From a virus, in the IMG/VR virus record IMGVR_UViG_3300030104_004093, positions 1 through 20,500 of that record: a DNA stretch of 20,500 bases; one strand, written 5' to 3'. The first letter of the stretch is position 1; every line of letters starts with the position of its first letter. Below, piece after piece: positions 6,635 to 17,686 of this stretch. The notes beneath the pieces are model-generated. The model made no database searches. It was not told the DNA's origin and was given only the letters and a program-made list of their open reading frames with translations. The position numbers were made by a program, and so were the translations under genes.

Positions 6635-6777
6635 GGAAGCGACATGCAGCAAGTGAGACAACAAAAATGACATTATGTGGATATGAGTGTACAGAGCAAG
6701 AGTATAGGAAAATGCGGGGCCGCAGGGCGGCCTTGATAACATGCAAGCATTGTTTGCAGTTGATGGGTGGCGCATGA
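6631..6777 (+). CDS. Cys-containing microprotein, 48 aa
   Basis: It is linked by ATGA overlaps at both ends. The N-terminus is basic (MRKRHAASETTK). Cysteines occur at about 16 and 20 (CGYEC) and as CKHC near 38-41. The second pair is a CxxC and the first a CxxxC, so zinc binding is possible but less canonical than in its neighbours. An EYRKMRGRRAALITC helix joins them. No family is recognised. Confidence 0.6.
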   Translation: MRKRHAASETTKMTLCGYECTEQEYRKMRGRRAALITCKHCLQLMGGA

Positions 6778-6941
6778 AGTGGCGTTTTAGCTGCCACAGT
6801 TGTGGTGAGATATATGAGATACAGCATAGGCAGTTGCACAAGACAGTGTTTTACACGCCTGAGAAAAAAGGACGGCCTACGTTAGGCTGTGTAAAGTGTA
6901 ATACAAAAGTAGTAGGAGATTTGATCGGTGGGCGCAAATGA
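6774..6941 (+). CDS. zinc-ribbon microprotein, 55 aa
   Basis: I start at 6774, where the ATG overlaps the previous stop as ATGA, rather than the ATG at 6741 inside the previous gene. The product begins MKWRFSCHSCGEIYEIQ and has a second CVKC near residues 40-43 in a basic C-terminal half. The layout is that of a ribbon with a long loop (29 residues) between the pairs. It overlaps the GTG start of the methyltransferase by 14 bases, and its stop forms ATGA with a second ORF in another frame. Confidence 0.7.
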   Translation: MKWRFSCHSCGEIYEIQHRQLHKTVFYTPEKKGRPTLGCVKCNTKVVGDLIGGRK

Positions 6942-7902
6942 GTTACGTTATGGCAGTTTGTTTAGTGGTATTGGCGGTATTGATCTTGGTATGGATATGG
7001 CAGGGTTCGAATGTGCTTGGCAGGTTGAAATAGATGACTACTGTCGAGAGATACTTAAAGCGCAATGGCCAAATTCAAAAAGATATAGAGACATCTTTAA
7101 AGTCAAAGGAGAAGAACTTGAGCCAGTTGACATTTTATGCGGAGGATTCCCCTGTCAACCAGTCTCGCTTGCAGGAAAACGTAGTGGAGTTGATGATGAA
7201 AGGTGGCTTTGGGATGAGTTCTACAGACTCATTTGCGACCTTAGGCCAAGATGGGTTGTGGCTGAGAATGTCCCAGGACTCTTATCAGCAAACTCTGGAC
7301 GGGCGTTTGCAGGAGTACTCAGGGACTTGGCCAAAAGCGGGTATGATGTTGTCTGGGACGTGTTTCCAGCGGGAGGACCAGGTGGCGTTGGAGCGCCGCA
7401 CAAAAGAGCAAGAGTCTTTATTGTGGGCTACTCCAAACACAATGGATCACTTAGAAGCGGGAATATCAGGAGCTTACAAGCAGAGTCTCAAAGGAAAGAG
7501 AGCAAGATCAAGCAATCTTCGAGAACAAGTAGTGTTAAAATGGCCGACACCGACAGTAGCGGACAGCAAAAATCACGCAACGGAAAGTCAATTCAAAAGA
7601 ATAGGAAGAAATCTAAACACCGAAGTGGCGATGCAAGAAATGTGGCCAACACCGACAAGAAGAGACTACAAAGGAGCAAGAAAACCAGAGACGTTAAAAG
7701 CAAAGGGCAGGACCGAGAGGAATACGTTACCCGATGCAATAAGGGCGCAGAGCAGTGGTTCGTTGAACCCGACGTGGGTAGAGTGGCTCATGGGATTTCC
7801 AATAGGGTGGACAGACTTAAAGCCCTCGGAAACGCAGTCGTCCCCCAAGTCGCATACAAAGTAGCAAGGATGATATATGAGTATACAGAAAAAGAGAAAT
7901 GA
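6928..7902 (+). CDS. dcm: C5-cytosine DNA methyltransferase
   Basis: It transfers a methyl group from S-adenosylmethionine to carbon 5 of cytosine in a specific DNA site. Visible motifs: SAM-binding FSGIGG (12-17), catalytic loop GGFPCQPVS with Cys 76, ENV (113-115), GAPHKRARVFIVG (155-167) and the C-terminal GNAVVP (301-306). The target-recognition region (170-285) is short and hydrophilic. Length (324 aa) is within the family range. The GTG start is chosen because AGGAG lies 9 nt before it at 6914-6918 and no in-frame ATG is near. No restriction endonuclease follows, so it is an orphan, probably protecting viral DNA. An 831-nt second frame lies inside it. Confidence 0.9.
   Translation: MGANELRYGSLFSGIGGIDLGMDMAGFECAWQVEIDDYCREILKAQWPNSKRYRDIFKVKGEELEPVDILCGGFPCQPVSLAGKRSGVDDERWLWDEFYRLICDLRPRWVVAENVPGLLSANSGRAFAGVLRDLAKSGYDVVWDVFPAGGPGGVGAPHKRARVFIVGYSKHNGSLRSGNIRSLQAESQRKESKIKQSSRTSSVKMADTDSSGQQKSRNGKSIQKNRKKSKHRSGDARNVANTDKKRLQRSKKTRDVKSKGQDREEYVTRCNKGAEQWFVEPDVGRVAHGISNRVDRLKALGNAVVPQVAYKVARMIYEYTEKEK
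6938..7033 (+). CDS. possible membrane-helix ORF inside dcm, 31 aa
   Basis: ATG at 6938 overlaps the stop of the upstream zinc protein as ATGA, the junction used throughout this operon. Residues 2-22 are strongly hydrophobic (SYVMAVCLVVLAVLILVWIW), followed by a short polar tail. It is read +1 from the methyltransferase, over its motif I. It ends at TAG 7031-7033, right against the ATG at 7034. Hydrophobicity could be a by-product of the Gly/Ile/Leu-rich motif I codons, so this may be only a translational relay or chance. Confidence 0.3.
   Translation: MSYVMAVCLVVLAVLILVWIWQGSNVLGRLK
7034..7864 (+). CDS. overlapping ORF in +1 frame of dcm, WPTP-type phage protein
   Basis: This frame is open for 276 codons entirely within the methyltransferase gene. 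Its translation has the marks of a protein type I know from phages, often annotated as methyltransferase-associated: AEDSP near 36-40, SGTWPKAGMM (96-105), then WATP (131), WPTPTVAD (170) and WPTPTRRD (204), and a C-terminal NPTWVEWLMGFPIGWTDL (245-262). The DNA that reads WPTPT here reads MADTD or VANTD in the methyltransferase frame, and NPTWVEW... overlies the motif before GNAVVP. Two family-like readings of one DNA suggest a true overlapping gene or an ancient frame change. Translation is unproven. Confidence 0.5.
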   Translation: MTTVERYLKRNGQIQKDIETSLKSKEKNLSQLTFYAEDSPVNQSRLQENVVELMMKGGFGMSSTDSFATLGQDGLWLRMSQDSYQQTLDGRLQEYSGTWPKAGMMLSGTCFQREDQVALERRTKEQESLLWATPNTMDHLEAGISGAYKQSLKGKRARSSNLREQVVLKWPTPTVADSKNHATESQFKRIGRNLNTEVAMQEMWPTPTRRDYKGARKPETLKAKGRTERNTLPDAIRAQSSGSLNPTWVEWLMGFPIGWTDLKPSETQSSPKSHTK

Positions 7903-8221: not shown

Positions 8222-8379
8222 TCAGAATATTTAGAGAAGGTGTAGTTGTTTATGAAAGTGATAATTTGTATGATATTGCAGATTGGTTGTATTATGAAGA
8301 ACAAGGTGTTAAAGACATGGTTGTAACTGTAAATCACAAGGAAGTAAAAAAAAGGGATGTACAAAGCAGATCAAAATGA
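8218..8379 (+). CDS. hypothetical protein, 53 aa
   Basis: The start overlaps the previous stop as ATGA, and its 3' end overlaps the terminase gene by 23 bases. The product MIRIFREGVVVYESDNLYDI continues with an aromatic acidic helix (ADWLYYEEQG) and a basic tail rich in Lys and Arg. Strand-turn-helix character is likely. No family is recognised. Confidence 0.6.
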   Translation: MIRIFREGVVVYESDNLYDIADWLYYEEQGVKDMVVTVNHKEVKKRDVQSRSK

Positions 8380-9832
8380 CATAACCAGGTTAGTTGCTAG
8401 TGCTTTGGATTTAGCATCCGAGAAGCCACTTACGATGGGTGAGTTTGCAGAATCTATTTTACAGAGCTATATGGATCAGGAGCCTACCGATTTTGTACCT
8501 CTTGGAGATATGCATAGAGAGTGGGAAGAGTTGTTTAACAAAGGCACTCACACCGCCATAATGTGCGCTAGAGGGCATTTAAAGACTAGCTGGAGCCTTG
8601 CAGTACTTGCTTACCACATGGCGACTTTTAAGAACTTTAGAGCGCTTTATATTTCAGCGACATTGGAACAGGCGTGGGACAAGTTAGAACAGTTTGAAGA
8701 ATTGTGTAAGCGTTCTTGGAGGCTTGAAGGTTATGTAAGATCTACAGATGACAGGAAAGCAGTATGGCGTAAGGGTGCTAAGTATTTCAATAATGGATCT
8801 AGGGTTCATGCAGCAAGTATTGGTAAGGCACTTGAGGGTCCTCACGTACACATGATTATTCTGGATGACGTTTTGCAGGAGTTTCCAAACCTTAGTGACG
8901 AGAAGGTCATACATTACATTCGTAGAGTTGTGATGCCAATGAGACTTCCTGAAGCTAAGATGTTATTGATAGGAACGCAGAAGAGAGTAGGAGATGCTAC
9001 AGATTGGGTAGAGCAAAATAAGATGTGGGACACAGTAAGACATCCTGCATTGCTTAACGATGACACGCCTAGATGGCCTGAGTATTGGACGTACGACAGG
9101 TTAATGGATGAGAAAGAAACAATGGGAAGTAGGGCGTTTGAGTCTGAGTATATGTTAAATCCGTTGGACCCAGAAAGTGCAGTTATACCTTACGAGATAC
9201 TCAATGCTTGTTTGGACAAGGGTTTGGAGATGGGCACTGCGCCAGATAATGAGGATTGGGACACTTACATGGGTGTTGATCTTGCGGTAGGTATGGACAG
9301 TAAGAATGACGAGACTGCGTATGTGATTATGGGATATAACAAGAACACACAAGAGCGTAGAGTATTGTATGCTTGGTCAGGTAAGATATATGCAAAGGGT
9401 CAGGGTTGGCTAGAGGCCCAAGTAGTAAGTATGAAGGAGTTAGCAGAGAGGTTTAATCCAAGTAAGATTATGGTAGAGTCTAATGGTTATCAGAGACTTG
9501 TAGTGCATGCAGCAGCAGACTTGGCAGGGTTGCCAGTAGTAGGGCACAATACAGGCAGAGAGAAGCACAGGCATGATGTTGGGATTCCACTTATAGCACT
9601 TAAGATGGAGCAAGAGAAGTATGCAATACCTTGGAATAAAGAAGCGACAGAAGGTAGCAGACCAGGTACACGTAAGTTAGTTGACGGTCTTAGCAGGCTA
9701 ATTTACGGTAAGAACGGAAGGCTTGAGGGTCACACACCTGATGCGGTGATGGCTTTGTGGATGTGTGAGTTAGCTATACATGACGATCATAAGCGCAAGC
9801 TAAACTACACAAAGTGGGATTACTTTGCATAA
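8357..9832 (+). CDS. terL: terminase large subunit (packaging ATPase-nuclease)
   Basis: TerL pumps viral DNA into the prohead through the portal and cuts it. The ATPase domain shows a deviant Walker A, ARGHLKTS (71-78), Walker B MIILDD (166-171) and the coupling segment LIGTQ (204-208). The nuclease domain has GVDLAVGMDS (306-315, Asp 308 a metal ligand), MVESNGYQ (372-379) and HTPDAVMALW (459-468, Asp 462). Length (491 aa) is normal. The GHLKTS form of Walker A is one seen in archaeal and some bacterial tailed viruses. The ATG follows AAGGG closely. The gene ends the operon; the next TATA box starts 2 nt after its stop. Confidence 0.93.
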   Translation: MYKADQNDITRLVASALDLASEKPLTMGEFAESILQSYMDQEPTDFVPLGDMHREWEELFNKGTHTAIMCARGHLKTSWSLAVLAYHMATFKNFRALYISATLEQAWDKLEQFEELCKRSWRLEGYVRSTDDRKAVWRKGAKYFNNGSRVHAASIGKALEGPHVHMIILDDVLQEFPNLSDEKVIHYIRRVVMPMRLPEAKMLLIGTQKRVGDATDWVEQNKMWDTVRHPALLNDDTPRWPEYWTYDRLMDEKETMGSRAFESEYMLNPLDPESAVIPYEILNACLDKGLEMGTAPDNEDWDTYMGVDLAVGMDSKNDETAYVIMGYNKNTQERRVLYAWSGKIYAKGQGWLEAQVVSMKELAERFNPSKIMVESNGYQRLVVHAAADLAGLPVVGHNTGREKHRHDVGIPLIALKMEQEKYAIPWNKEATEGSRPGTRKLVDGLSRLIYGKNGRLEGHTPDAVMALWMCELAIHDDHKRKLNYTKWDYFA

Positions 9833-10558: not shown

Positions 10559-10932
10559 AATATAGTATACCTGGCGGTGTAAAGAAGGAGGCTATGCTAG
10601 GTCGAAAGTTATACAAGGAGTTTGGCTACGGTGGTGGATCTGTAACTGCTATGATTAACAAGATGTTGATAAACAAAACAGAAGTCACCCACCCTATTGC
10701 AATTAAGATACACACTTACTACAGGAGACATGAGAAAGTAGATCCACAAGGTCAAAATTTTGATAATAAAAAACGTCCTAGTAAAGGCTACATTATGTGG
10801 AAGCGTATGGGCGGCGATGCAGGACATTCTTGGTCACGTAAACTAAAAAGGAGCATAGATTCCGTAAACAAAGATAAACTTAAAAAGATAAACGCTAGAT
10901 TGGAGAAGATAACAAGTGGGCTTACTCGATAG
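10555..10932 (+). CDS. conserved phage morphogenesis-cluster protein, 125 aa
   Basis: The start overlaps the regulator stop (ATGA). Residues 4-60 (SIPGGVKKEAMLGRKLYKEF...GGGSVTAMINKML...HPIAIKIHTYYRRHEKV) and 78-95 (KGYIMWKRMGGDAGHSWSRK) match a pattern common in tailed-phage head clusters: 'p.gV...A..Gl.....G.ggt.vG...A..L......p....kM..yf.RHe.dk...gyi.w.lWGGdaG..W'. It is usually a separate small gene or a domain in capsid-region proteins, with unknown function. It overlaps the portal start by 17 bases. The role is unproven but its position next to the portal is typical. Confidence 0.6.
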   Translation: MKYSIPGGVKKEAMLGRKLYKEFGYGGGSVTAMINKMLINKTEVTHPIAIKIHTYYRRHEKVDPQGQNFDNKKRPSKGYIMWKRMGGDAGHSWSRKLKRSIDSVNKDKLKKINARLEKITSGLTR

Positions 10933-12361
10933 ATTCCGTAGCAGACCTGCTCCAATTAGGAAGTCAGGAATACAAGATTACTTAGAAAAGAATATGATAA
11001 AAGATGCAAGGACACCTGTGTATTCAGGTGTAAGTTCTGATCTTGCATACAAAGAGGCTATCTTACCGCCTGTTGATCAAAACTATTTAGAGATATTAGC
11101 AGACAGGTATTCACACTTACGTACTGTAATAACTAGGATAGCTAGTCAAGCAGTAGCTAAGGAGTGGGAGTTTATTGAGTTAGGCTCAGGCAATCCTGAA
11201 GAGAAGGCTGCACTAAACAGAGTATTACATGATCCTACGAATGGGCATGCAGACATTACTGGCATGGAGTTTTTTAAGGCAGTCATTAGACAGCTTGAGA
11301 TCTTTGATGATTGTTGGGTAAGTGTTGTGTATGACAGGATGCTTGACAATGATGGTGAGACTACAGGTAAAGTAGTCAAGGAGTTATGGGTAGAAGATGC
11401 AAAGCACATGCGATTCTACGTTGATGGTTTTGGTAAGTTTATAGAGGACAAGATGTTTGATCCGTTGACTAGGCAGTTTATGTCTGGTACACACAACAAG
11501 GACACGGGCACAAAGTTAGTACCTATGGCTTACTTTTATGACATAGATGGTGAGCAGATACCATTTGCAAGGGACGAGATTATACATTTTAACAAGTATA
11601 GTTCTACTGCAAGATTATATGGACAGTCACCGATTATAGGTCTTTCTAAGAAAATCGAAACAGCGCTTGCCATTGAATCTTTACAAAACAAAGTGTATCG
11701 ATTAGAAAGACCCCCCAAAGGTTTCTTAGATATCCCAGGTCACAATGAGGACTCACTTAACAGATTAGGAGAATACATAGCAGAAGAGACAAGACGTAAT
11801 CCTAACTTTATACCGATCATTAGCAGTCAAGAAGGATCTAACACTGCTAAGTTTGTAAGCATTATGCCTAACTTTGATGAGTTAATGATGTTGCCATACA
11901 TGGACAGGATTAACAATGACATTAACGCATCGTATGGTGTTATGCCGTTAGTGGTGGGTGACATGTCAGGAGTAGGTGGACTTAATTCAGAAGGTGAGCA
12001 GATTACTATATTTGATCGTACAATACGAGAAACACAGCGTTGTGTAGAGTTAGGCTTGATAAGGCCGTTGCTAAAGCTTATGGATATTTCTACTTGGACA
12101 GTTAGGTTTAACGACATTAACGAAAGAAACGAGACACAATACTTAAACAACATGAATCTAAAAGCACAAATCATTACACAGTTTCAAAATTCAGGTATTG
12201 ATGTGGACTTAGGGGAGGATGGAGAATTAGTACTACCGAAGTCAGCAGAGAAGGTAAGGCAGGACTTTCTAAAGCGTTCCGAGGAGTCGCTGGAGGAAGT
12301 GGAGCCAAACGAGCATCTCTCTACATTGACCGAGCTTTACGAGACCTCCGAGCTGTCTTAA
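10916..12361 (+). CDS. portal protein
   Basis: The portal forms the twelve-fold ring at the capsid vertex through which TerL packages DNA and to which the neck binds. The start is GTG, giving MGLLDRFRSRP, the standard portal N-terminus. Support includes TRIASQAVAKEWEF near residue 75, DEIIHFNKYSSTARLYGQSP near 220-240, LIRPLLKLMD near 380 and the long acidic C-terminal helix. These match the phage portal families of HK97 and PBSX-type viruses; 481 aa is a normal length. It directly follows the small conserved gene and precedes the MuF-like gene, the canonical order. The last 160 nt also encode a plausible N-terminus for the MuF-like protein in the -1 frame. Confidence 0.88.
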   Translation: MGLLDRFRSRPAPIRKSGIQDYLEKNMIKDARTPVYSGVSSDLAYKEAILPPVDQNYLEILADRYSHLRTVITRIASQAVAKEWEFIELGSGNPEEKAALNRVLHDPTNGHADITGMEFFKAVIRQLEIFDDCWVSVVYDRMLDNDGETTGKVVKELWVEDAKHMRFYVDGFGKFIEDKMFDPLTRQFMSGTHNKDTGTKLVPMAYFYDIDGEQIPFARDEIIHFNKYSSTARLYGQSPIIGLSKKIETALAIESLQNKVYRLERPPKGFLDIPGHNEDSLNRLGEYIAEETRRNPNFIPIISSQEGSNTAKFVSIMPNFDELMMLPYMDRINNDINASYGVMPLVVGDMSGVGGLNSEGEQITIFDRTIRETQRCVELGLIRPLLKLMDISTWTVRFNDINERNETQYLNNMNLKAQIITQFQNSGIDVDLGEDGELVLPKSAEKVRQDFLKRSEESLEEVEPNEHLSTLTELYETSELS

Positions 12362-16531: not shown

Positions 16532-17686
16532 ATGGAAATTGAAGAATACATAAACGCCTACTATGGCGGAACACTAGGCATAGCAAAACGATACGGCATA
16601 GAAAAGGCAGACAATGATTTCACTGTTGCCAACCAAGCAGCAGCTTTCAATGTTGTATACGGAGCAAAGGTTTACAACCAGCTTAACACCAAGTCTGAAG
16701 TAGCAAAGCTATTAAAGAAAGAACCTTGGACACAATCAGGTTGGAGAGTTATGACAACACGTCCAGTAGATAACGGTGGTAACGCAGACTTTGCAGTAGG
16801 AACAGCAGAAGGCGATGATTTCGGAGACACAACTGCACCAACTCTAAAAGAAGTAAATGCAACTCTAAAAGAAATCGTAACACCTTACGAAATTTCAACC
16901 AAAGCAGAATTACTATCTGACGCAGATGACGGTCTAAAAGGATTAGCTGCATTTATGAGAAAAGAAATGGGAGATGCTCACGTTTTCGGTATGGATCAGA
17001 TGTTATTAGCAGATGCAGATACAGTTGTTGCAGCTAATTTAGAATCTCTTGATCGTGTAACTACTACAGATGCTTACTGTAATCCATCTGGCGGTGCATT
17101 AGATACAAGAACTGATGGAGACATGTACAACCTAACCAAGCAAACAGAAGCAGCTTGGATGGACGCAGGTCACACAGGTCACGCTGATGGAAGTAACAGA
17201 GCACTTACAACTGCAATGTTAGATGACATGATTGAAGGTGTAATGACCAATGGAGCAAACTACGCAGATTTGATTCTATTAACAGGTCACGACACATACA
17301 TGAACATTCAACAACTGTTAACCAAAGGTGGAGATGGTGGCGCAGCTACTATCCTACGTTACGATGCAGCACAAGGTGGAGCAGCTTCACAAAATGGAGT
17401 TCTCGGACAAGCTGGTCTAAACTACGACAGCAGAGTTGGTTCTTACAATGGAATACCAATTTTTGTATCACAACACGTTACAAAAGAAGCAAGTGGTACA
17501 TCCAGAATACACTTGTTGGACTTGCCACAATTCGCTTTAAGAGTTGCAGCACCAACAACCTATGTAGCTAATGATAATCTAGCTGTAACACAATCATTAA
17601 CCAAGCAGTTTGCATTAATTACTGCAATGGAATTGATTACTTACAGGTGGAACACCAGCGGTAGTGTAAGAGATTTGAACGCTTAG
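16532..17686 (+). CDS. major capsid protein, HK97-fold
   Basis: The shell subunit of the virion. GAGGT at 16519-16523 lies 8 nt before the ATG. The 384-aa chain has an N-terminal helix, a beta-rich stretch, an E-loop-like APTLKEVNATLKEIVTPYEI, SADAELLSD-type 'tKAELLSDADDGL' and a P-domain-like GHDTYMNIQQLL and YNGIPIFVSQHVTKEA before FALITAMELITYRW at the end. 'g.pi.vs' plus a closing 'ql.alta.e' segment is typical of HK97-fold capsids. There is no long N-terminal delta domain, which fits a separate scaffold. Gene order protease, scaffold, capsid supports it. Confidence 0.85.
   Translation: MEIEEYINAYYGGTLGIAKRYGIEKADNDFTVANQAAAFNVVYGAKVYNQLNTKSEVAKLLKKEPWTQSGWRVMTTRPVDNGGNADFAVGTAEGDDFGDTTAPTLKEVNATLKEIVTPYEISTKAELLSDADDGLKGLAAFMRKEMGDAHVFGMDQMLLADADTVVAANLESLDRVTTTDAYCNPSGGALDTRTDGDMYNLTKQTEAAWMDAGHTGHADGSNRALTTAMLDDMIEGVMTNGANYADLILLTGHDTYMNIQQLLTKGGDGGAATILRYDAAQGGAASQNGVLGQAGLNYDSRVGSYNGIPIFVSQHVTKEASGTSRIHLLDLPQFALRVAAPTTYVANDNLAVTQSLTKQFALITAMELITYRWNTSGSVRDLNA

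Follow-up and report, generated by a model that had tools for sequence, protein, structure and literature searches.

A split C5-cytosine methyltransferase probably encoded by nested reading frames in phage DNA

The methyltransferase locus in the 20,500-nt stretch of viral DNA analyzed here (the window) very probably encodes a split C5-cytosine methyltransferase, the two subunits of which are read from overlapping frames. Sequence comparison demonstrated the dual coding and the division of the enzyme motifs between the frames. In the proposed arrangement, alpha, the methyltransferase-frame protein (6928–7902), would supply the S-adenosylmethionine-binding and catalytic motifs I–VIII and the C-terminal motif X. 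Beta, the +1-frame protein (approximately 7193–7864; named OV early in the analysis), would supply the target-recognition region with its WPTP modules and motif IX. We infer from the sequences that beta is made, most likely, by internal initiation near 7193–7214, and that the two polypeptides assemble to form one enzyme methylating phage DNA. The features of the methyltransferase locus given below lie on the plus strand.

Genes for phage packaging and head proteins neighbor the locus (terminase large subunit, 8357–9832; portal, 10916–12361; major head protein, 16532–17686). No restriction endonuclease was recognized among the ten proteins searched near the methyltransferase, and thus it is likely an orphan phage enzyme guarding the phage DNA against host restriction. 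A small ORF at 6741–6941, which contains CxxC twice and belongs to phrog_2834 (function unknown), overlaps the start of alpha by 14 bases.

Coding in the +1 frame

Alpha is a CDS of 324 aa with a GTG start. The maximal beta ORF (7034–7864) starts with ATG and comprises 276 aa (831 nt with the stop); it is fully enclosed by the methyltransferase ORF at an offset of +1, as the initial annotation had described. The motifs quoted there were all present: SGTWPKAGMM, WATP (residue 131), WPTP (residues 170 and 204), and NPTWVEWLMGFPIGWTDL were found in the +1 translation, and the WPTPT sites read MADTDSS and VANTDKK in the methyltransferase frame. Synonymous-codon permutation of the methyltransferase gene yielded a longest +1 ORF of approximately 104–111 codons on average versus the 276 observed. 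None of the 500 shuffles attained this length, which gives the lowest p value possible with that number (p = 0.002). The nested ORF is therefore beyond chance. The +2 frame behaved as a null under the same permutation.

Relatives with protein identities down to approximately 30–35% were collected through viral scans with OV and with alpha as queries. In nearly all loci, OV was found at +1 inside a methyltransferase. Both frames were open in 159 of 163 distinct nested loci, and the third frame in none. Among 52 monomeric relatives, which carry this recognition region in the methyltransferase frame itself, none had an open +1 frame. The source collections are partly metagenomic, and the exceptions L144 and L181 resemble single-base indels. 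In these two loci, the catalytic domain is one base out of frame with the rest (motif IX at +2, motif X at +1), which may reflect a sequencing indel or a broken gene.

Frequent +1 stops in homologues had been named in the initial annotation as the observation that would speak against a second gene. Counting them in 74 relatives gave 1 stop versus approximately 269 expected from synonymous shuffling over methyltransferase residues 90–272. Along the gene, the observed and expected numbers were 117 and 105 at residues 6–35, 69 and 123 at residues 36–89, 0 and 101 at residues 90–130, 0 and 71 at residues 131–172 (172 expected for 90–172 together), and 1 and 97 at residues 173–272. Beta must therefore be open from approximately residue 90 (window position ~7193). 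These results confirmed that ORF 7034–7864 contains real coding sequence, with the constraint starting near 7193. The open frames, the stop avoidance, and the frame-specific selection described below thus bore out the proposal that one conserved DNA is read alternately as two protein types across many viruses.

A start of beta at 7034 is doubtful. The initial ~53 codons of this ORF were unconstrained, and +1 stops are common there in the relatives; this segment appears to be dispensable in general. Because the stop depletion at residues 36–89 is partial, the comparison suggests that some relatives may start beta further upstream. An ATG at aligned residue 89/90 (7193/7196) is frequent in the relatives. 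In the window, GGAG (7186–7189), a candidate ribosome-binding site with duplex energies of -5.2 and -5.9 kcal/mol for the ATGs at 7193 and 7196, lies just 5' of it. Both ATGs derive from GAT codons of alpha. A second candidate, AGGTGG (7201–7206; -7.2 kcal/mol), precedes the ATG at 7214. These start and ribosome-binding signals are weak, and they vary between relatives. The likely beta CDS, the conserved and obligatorily open part, was set to 7193–7864 on the basis of the stop depletion, with a presumptive exact start.

Division of the enzyme motifs between the frames

To locate the selected frame, substitutions were counted by methyltransferase codon position (1/2/3) over 17 independent pairs; position 1 of this frame is position 3 of the overlapping one. 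The counts were 25/11/135 before the overlap and 84/39/217 at residues 36–100. In the recognition region, the excess moved to position 1 (456/249/245, p = 1e-15), and motif IX gave 55/23/24. In motif X, the excess was again at position 3 (38/25/93). The N/S ratios relative to expectation, calculated from 11 pairs, followed the same course. For residues 6–35, 36–89, 90–172, 173–272, 273–298, and 299–323, alpha yielded 0.06, 0.16, 0.34, 1.89, 1.61, and 0.11, and beta yielded 2.65, 1.32, 0.86, 0.33, 0.32, and 2.09, respectively. Constraint on one frame is expected to push the value of the other above 1; such values do not indicate positive selection. The pattern means that the amino acids of alpha count in motifs I–VIII and X, and those of beta in the recognition region and motif IX. 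Selection changes frame along the gene: motifs I–VIII and X are maintained in alpha, while the WPTP recognition region and motif IX are maintained only in beta. The per-frame check proposed at the outset thus revealed purifying constraint in each frame, in different zones. The accompanying claim that the methyltransferase frame keeps all its motifs did not hold, as this frame keeps I–VIII and X, its middle is unconstrained, and motif IX lies at +1.

Alpha matched PF00145 (E = 8.9e-55) and phrog_363 (E = 4e-83). Its catalytic domain (residues 6–172, 6943–7443) contains motifs I–VIII of a C5-cytosine methyltransferase, including GGFPCQP, ENV, and RxR; it is constrained in the methyltransferase frame and was modeled with a pLDDT above 90 over most of its length. 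Motif X, of the GNxVxP type, follows the recognition region as KALGNAVVPQ with an ordered C-terminal helix (7819–7899, pLDDT 86–96). The AlphaFold model of alpha superimposed on M.HhaI with a Z value of 27 and an rmsd of 1.9–2.0 over 207–209 residues. Residues 1–170 and 298–324 were ordered and M.HhaI-like, and residues 197–276 and 280–297 fell below pLDDT 50. The model thus depicts alpha without the small domain and with a disordered middle. In line with this, the alpha profile aligned with the first 166 residues of the monomeric relatives only. Motif IX and the recognition region do not share a chain with I–VIII and X: they are absent from alpha and present in the +1 frame, which indicates a split and not a monomeric enzyme.

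Beta matched phrog_1008 (E = 2.1e-33), a family itself labeled DNA methyltransferase, as did 74 of the 74 OV relatives; no Pfam family was matched by beta or by any of these 74 members. The beta profile aligned with the C-terminal recognition region and motif IX of the monomeric relatives (98.2%, E = 4.4e-14). The recognition region (7424–7759) carries WATP/WPTP modules at 7424, 7541, and 7643. It is followed by motif IX (SLNPTWVEWLMGFPIGWTDL, 7760–7819), which reads NPTWVEWLMGFPIGWT; its columns L, W, V, L, M, G, and F were invariant in the 74-row alignment. The monomeric counterpart of this motif aligned with motif IX of M.HhaI. The match of the monomer profile to M.HhaI residues 272–307 (motifs IX and X, RKLHPRECARVMGYPDSY...GNSVV) was weak, with a domain score not significant alone, and was placed by order and motif. 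Modeling of beta alone gave a mean pLDDT of 60. A fold search with this weak model returned four matches, none with E below 0.001, and no PDB match; the beta profile hit only designed helical proteins among the PDB sequences, at E >= 0.2. In two loci (L083 and L273), the C-terminus of beta runs past motif IX with the shared ending RPLExDKFQxWLxxH over alpha motif X, a further dual-coded stretch.

The DNA of beta motif IX is shared with the alpha-frame segment WFVEPDVGRVAHGISNRVDRL (7756–7818). At this site, the H, N, or D of alpha corresponds to NAT codons tracking the invariant ATG of beta. Since these codons are forced by the beta ATG, beta motif IX largely accounts for the conserved alpha string VGRVAHGVPNRVDRL, which is its shadow in the other frame.

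The same data could be read as one polypeptide produced by programmed ribosomal frameshifting, with a +1 shift after motif VIII and a return to frame 0 before motif X, to give a monomer with the order I–VIII, recognition region, IX, and X. The functional residues switch frame twice in exactly this order, and the in-frame monomeric relatives show that the fused order is workable. We nevertheless consider this improbable, as it needs two opposite shifts in one mRNA. Moreover, the stretch free of +1 stops opens at residue 90 in every relative, ~80 codons ahead of the recognition region; frameshifting at the junction would call for no such early opening. The tandem-split relatives L065, L195, and L203 also carry motif X in the beta frame. 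Even less probable is that beta is a distinct overprinting protein outside the enzyme (e.g., a regulator, an anti-restriction, or a DNA-binding protein). The lack of a Pfam family and the uninformative structure model of beta alone would fit such a protein, but beta shares homology with the recognition region and motif IX that monomeric methyltransferases carry in frame, and these are precisely the parts that alpha misses. That the +1 frame is a mere by-product of methyltransferase conservation or codon bias agrees with the unconstrained residues 36–89 (beta N/S 1.32) and is contradicted elsewhere by codon permutation, stop depletion, frame-specific substitutions, and the monomer control, so that we regard this explanation as ruled out for practical purposes and as already refuted for 7193–7864.

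Gene layouts among relatives

We consider it likely that a large clade of phage C5-methyltransferases has nested dual coding as its usual layout, beyond a single odd enzyme. The alpha signature EPDVGRVAHGVPNRVDRL would then largely be a shadow of motif IX in the other frame, interconversion with monomeric and tandem-split forms would have been repeated, and a second group (YSLSPKACxGILR) would contain a separate dual-coded segment. Because sampling with OV or alpha could be biased toward loci with the +1 protein, a further scan used a catalytic-domain alignment alone, with a pattern around motif IV. Motif IX was at +1 and motif X at 0 in 71 of the 80 loci fetched; nested is the commonest layout in the clade. 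A scan with the monomeric actinophage enzymes yielded 53 loci that keep all parts in a single frame, along with 13 nested loci. The two scans addressed the concern about retrieval bias. Altogether, the layouts comprised 176 nested rows, all with motif X in alpha as in the window, 60 monomeric rows, and 9 tandem-split rows, in which motifs IX and X are both at +1.

A FastTree phylogeny of the catalytic (N-terminal) domain required at least 12 changes among the nested, monomeric, and tandem-split states, which speaks against a single origin of the nested layout, but its inner support was weak. The tree suggests, with this weak support, that the nested layout interconverts with the other two forms. 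A likely, though weakly supported, route would run from the monomer through a tandem split (one indel) to the nested form (a second indel).

The nested form was found in the Paenibacillus phage Rani, Burkholderia phage BcepC6B, Acinetobacter phage ABMM1, and Escherichia phage N15 (gene 58), as well as in the Mycobacterium phages OwlsT2W and ShroomBoi, Bacteroides phage BF1-TP2, E. coli prophages, and Paenibacillus and Leptospira plasmids. Among the nested records with annotation inspected, the inner gene is annotated only in Rani ('g50 internal gene'); mostly, alpha alone is annotated (N15 gene 58, BcepC6B, ABMM1, and the E. coli prophages). In one E. coli prophage (L270:2056–3225), RefSeq lists two incomplete methyltransferase pseudogenes, yet the beta frame is open for 343 codons.

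The locus is likewise read in both frames in more than 150 other virus sequences, for which annotation usually presents a single gene of the pair. Since alpha is mostly the only gene shown in records of phages, E. coli prophages, and plasmids, the annotated gene, cloned alone or recoded, would probably give an inactive enzyme, and the determinant of target specificity would be missed. Alpha falls into phrog_363 and beta into phrog_1008; thus, databases already store both readings as separate families, and PHROGs splits the two frames into separate methyltransferase families. The suspicion that the WPTP family is misannotated therefore survived in part: the family is not an artefact and constitutes the recognition part of the same enzyme, and the two frames are indeed filed as separate families or the methyltransferase alone is annotated. 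Overlapping frames usually pair unrelated proteins; here, they would pair two halves of one enzyme. The co-occurrence of monomeric, tandem-split, and nested forms in one clade offers a testbed for the origin and reversion of overlapping genes.

Other overlaps were observed during the scans. An additional +1 module of the WPTP type is located in an insertion in the N-terminal part of a methyltransferase (L051:2767–2949). A second group of phage C5-methyltransferases (L274–L317; L130:2290–2760; L185:2200–2649; L107:1592–2074) contains a different +1 ORF over motifs VI–VIII and the next region. This ORF carries YSLSPKACxGILRR..RGK.LP, a segment found at +1 in 31 of 32 complete loci; the canonical RRLTPxECERLQGFP, where found, is mostly in the methyltransferase frame (17 loci). 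L107 is Streptococcus phage MM1, in which this +1 ORF is annotated as ORF14 (phrog_16143).

Comparison with known systems

The monomeric actinophage enzymes with LLPTP repeats (L084, WillSterrel gp71; L099; L102) share the catalytic domain, the WPTP-type region, and motif IX with the window locus, but everything is in one frame and the +1 frame is closed. The gp50/gp51 pair of the Paenibacillus phage Rani is the same nested pair, gp51 being the product labeled as an internal gene by the depositors. It differs in sequence (~30% identity), and the assigned function is DNA methyltransferase only. In the open-access literature, we found no paper describing a nested methyltransferase pair in phages, which is weak evidence for novelty.

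M.EcoHK31I, a restriction-modification enzyme, recognizes YGGCCR, and M.AquI recognizes CYCGRG. Lee et al. reportedly described in 1995 that the small ORF of M.EcoHK31I sits within the large ORF but uses a different frame; the two ORFs of the window locus are arranged likewise. M.EaeI is similar to M.EcoHK31I in its nested layout.

M.AquI is a tandem-split enzyme whose small subunit holds motifs IX and X and whose variable region is divided between both subunits (PMC3404938). Its natural break falls after motif VIII and before the variable region ends, a kind of layout shared by a few members of the present clade (L065, L085, L195, and L203). In contrast to M.AquI, the window keeps motif X in alpha, and the genes are nested.

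M.EcoHK31I consists of two polypeptides, the large one with motifs I–VIII and X and the predicted TRD, and the small one with motif IX (PMC3404938). By the described layout, the window locus shares the division of I–VIII and X to the large subunit and IX to the small one. A predicted recognition domain in the large subunit, a published prediction and perhaps not a defining trait, was not found in the window, where selection and homology place the recognition region in beta. Furthermore, M.EcoHK31I belongs to a restriction-modification system, whereas no adjoining restriction gene was recognized at the window locus. By the shared division of motifs, the window locus would therefore work like M.EcoHK31I, except that the recognition region is in beta.
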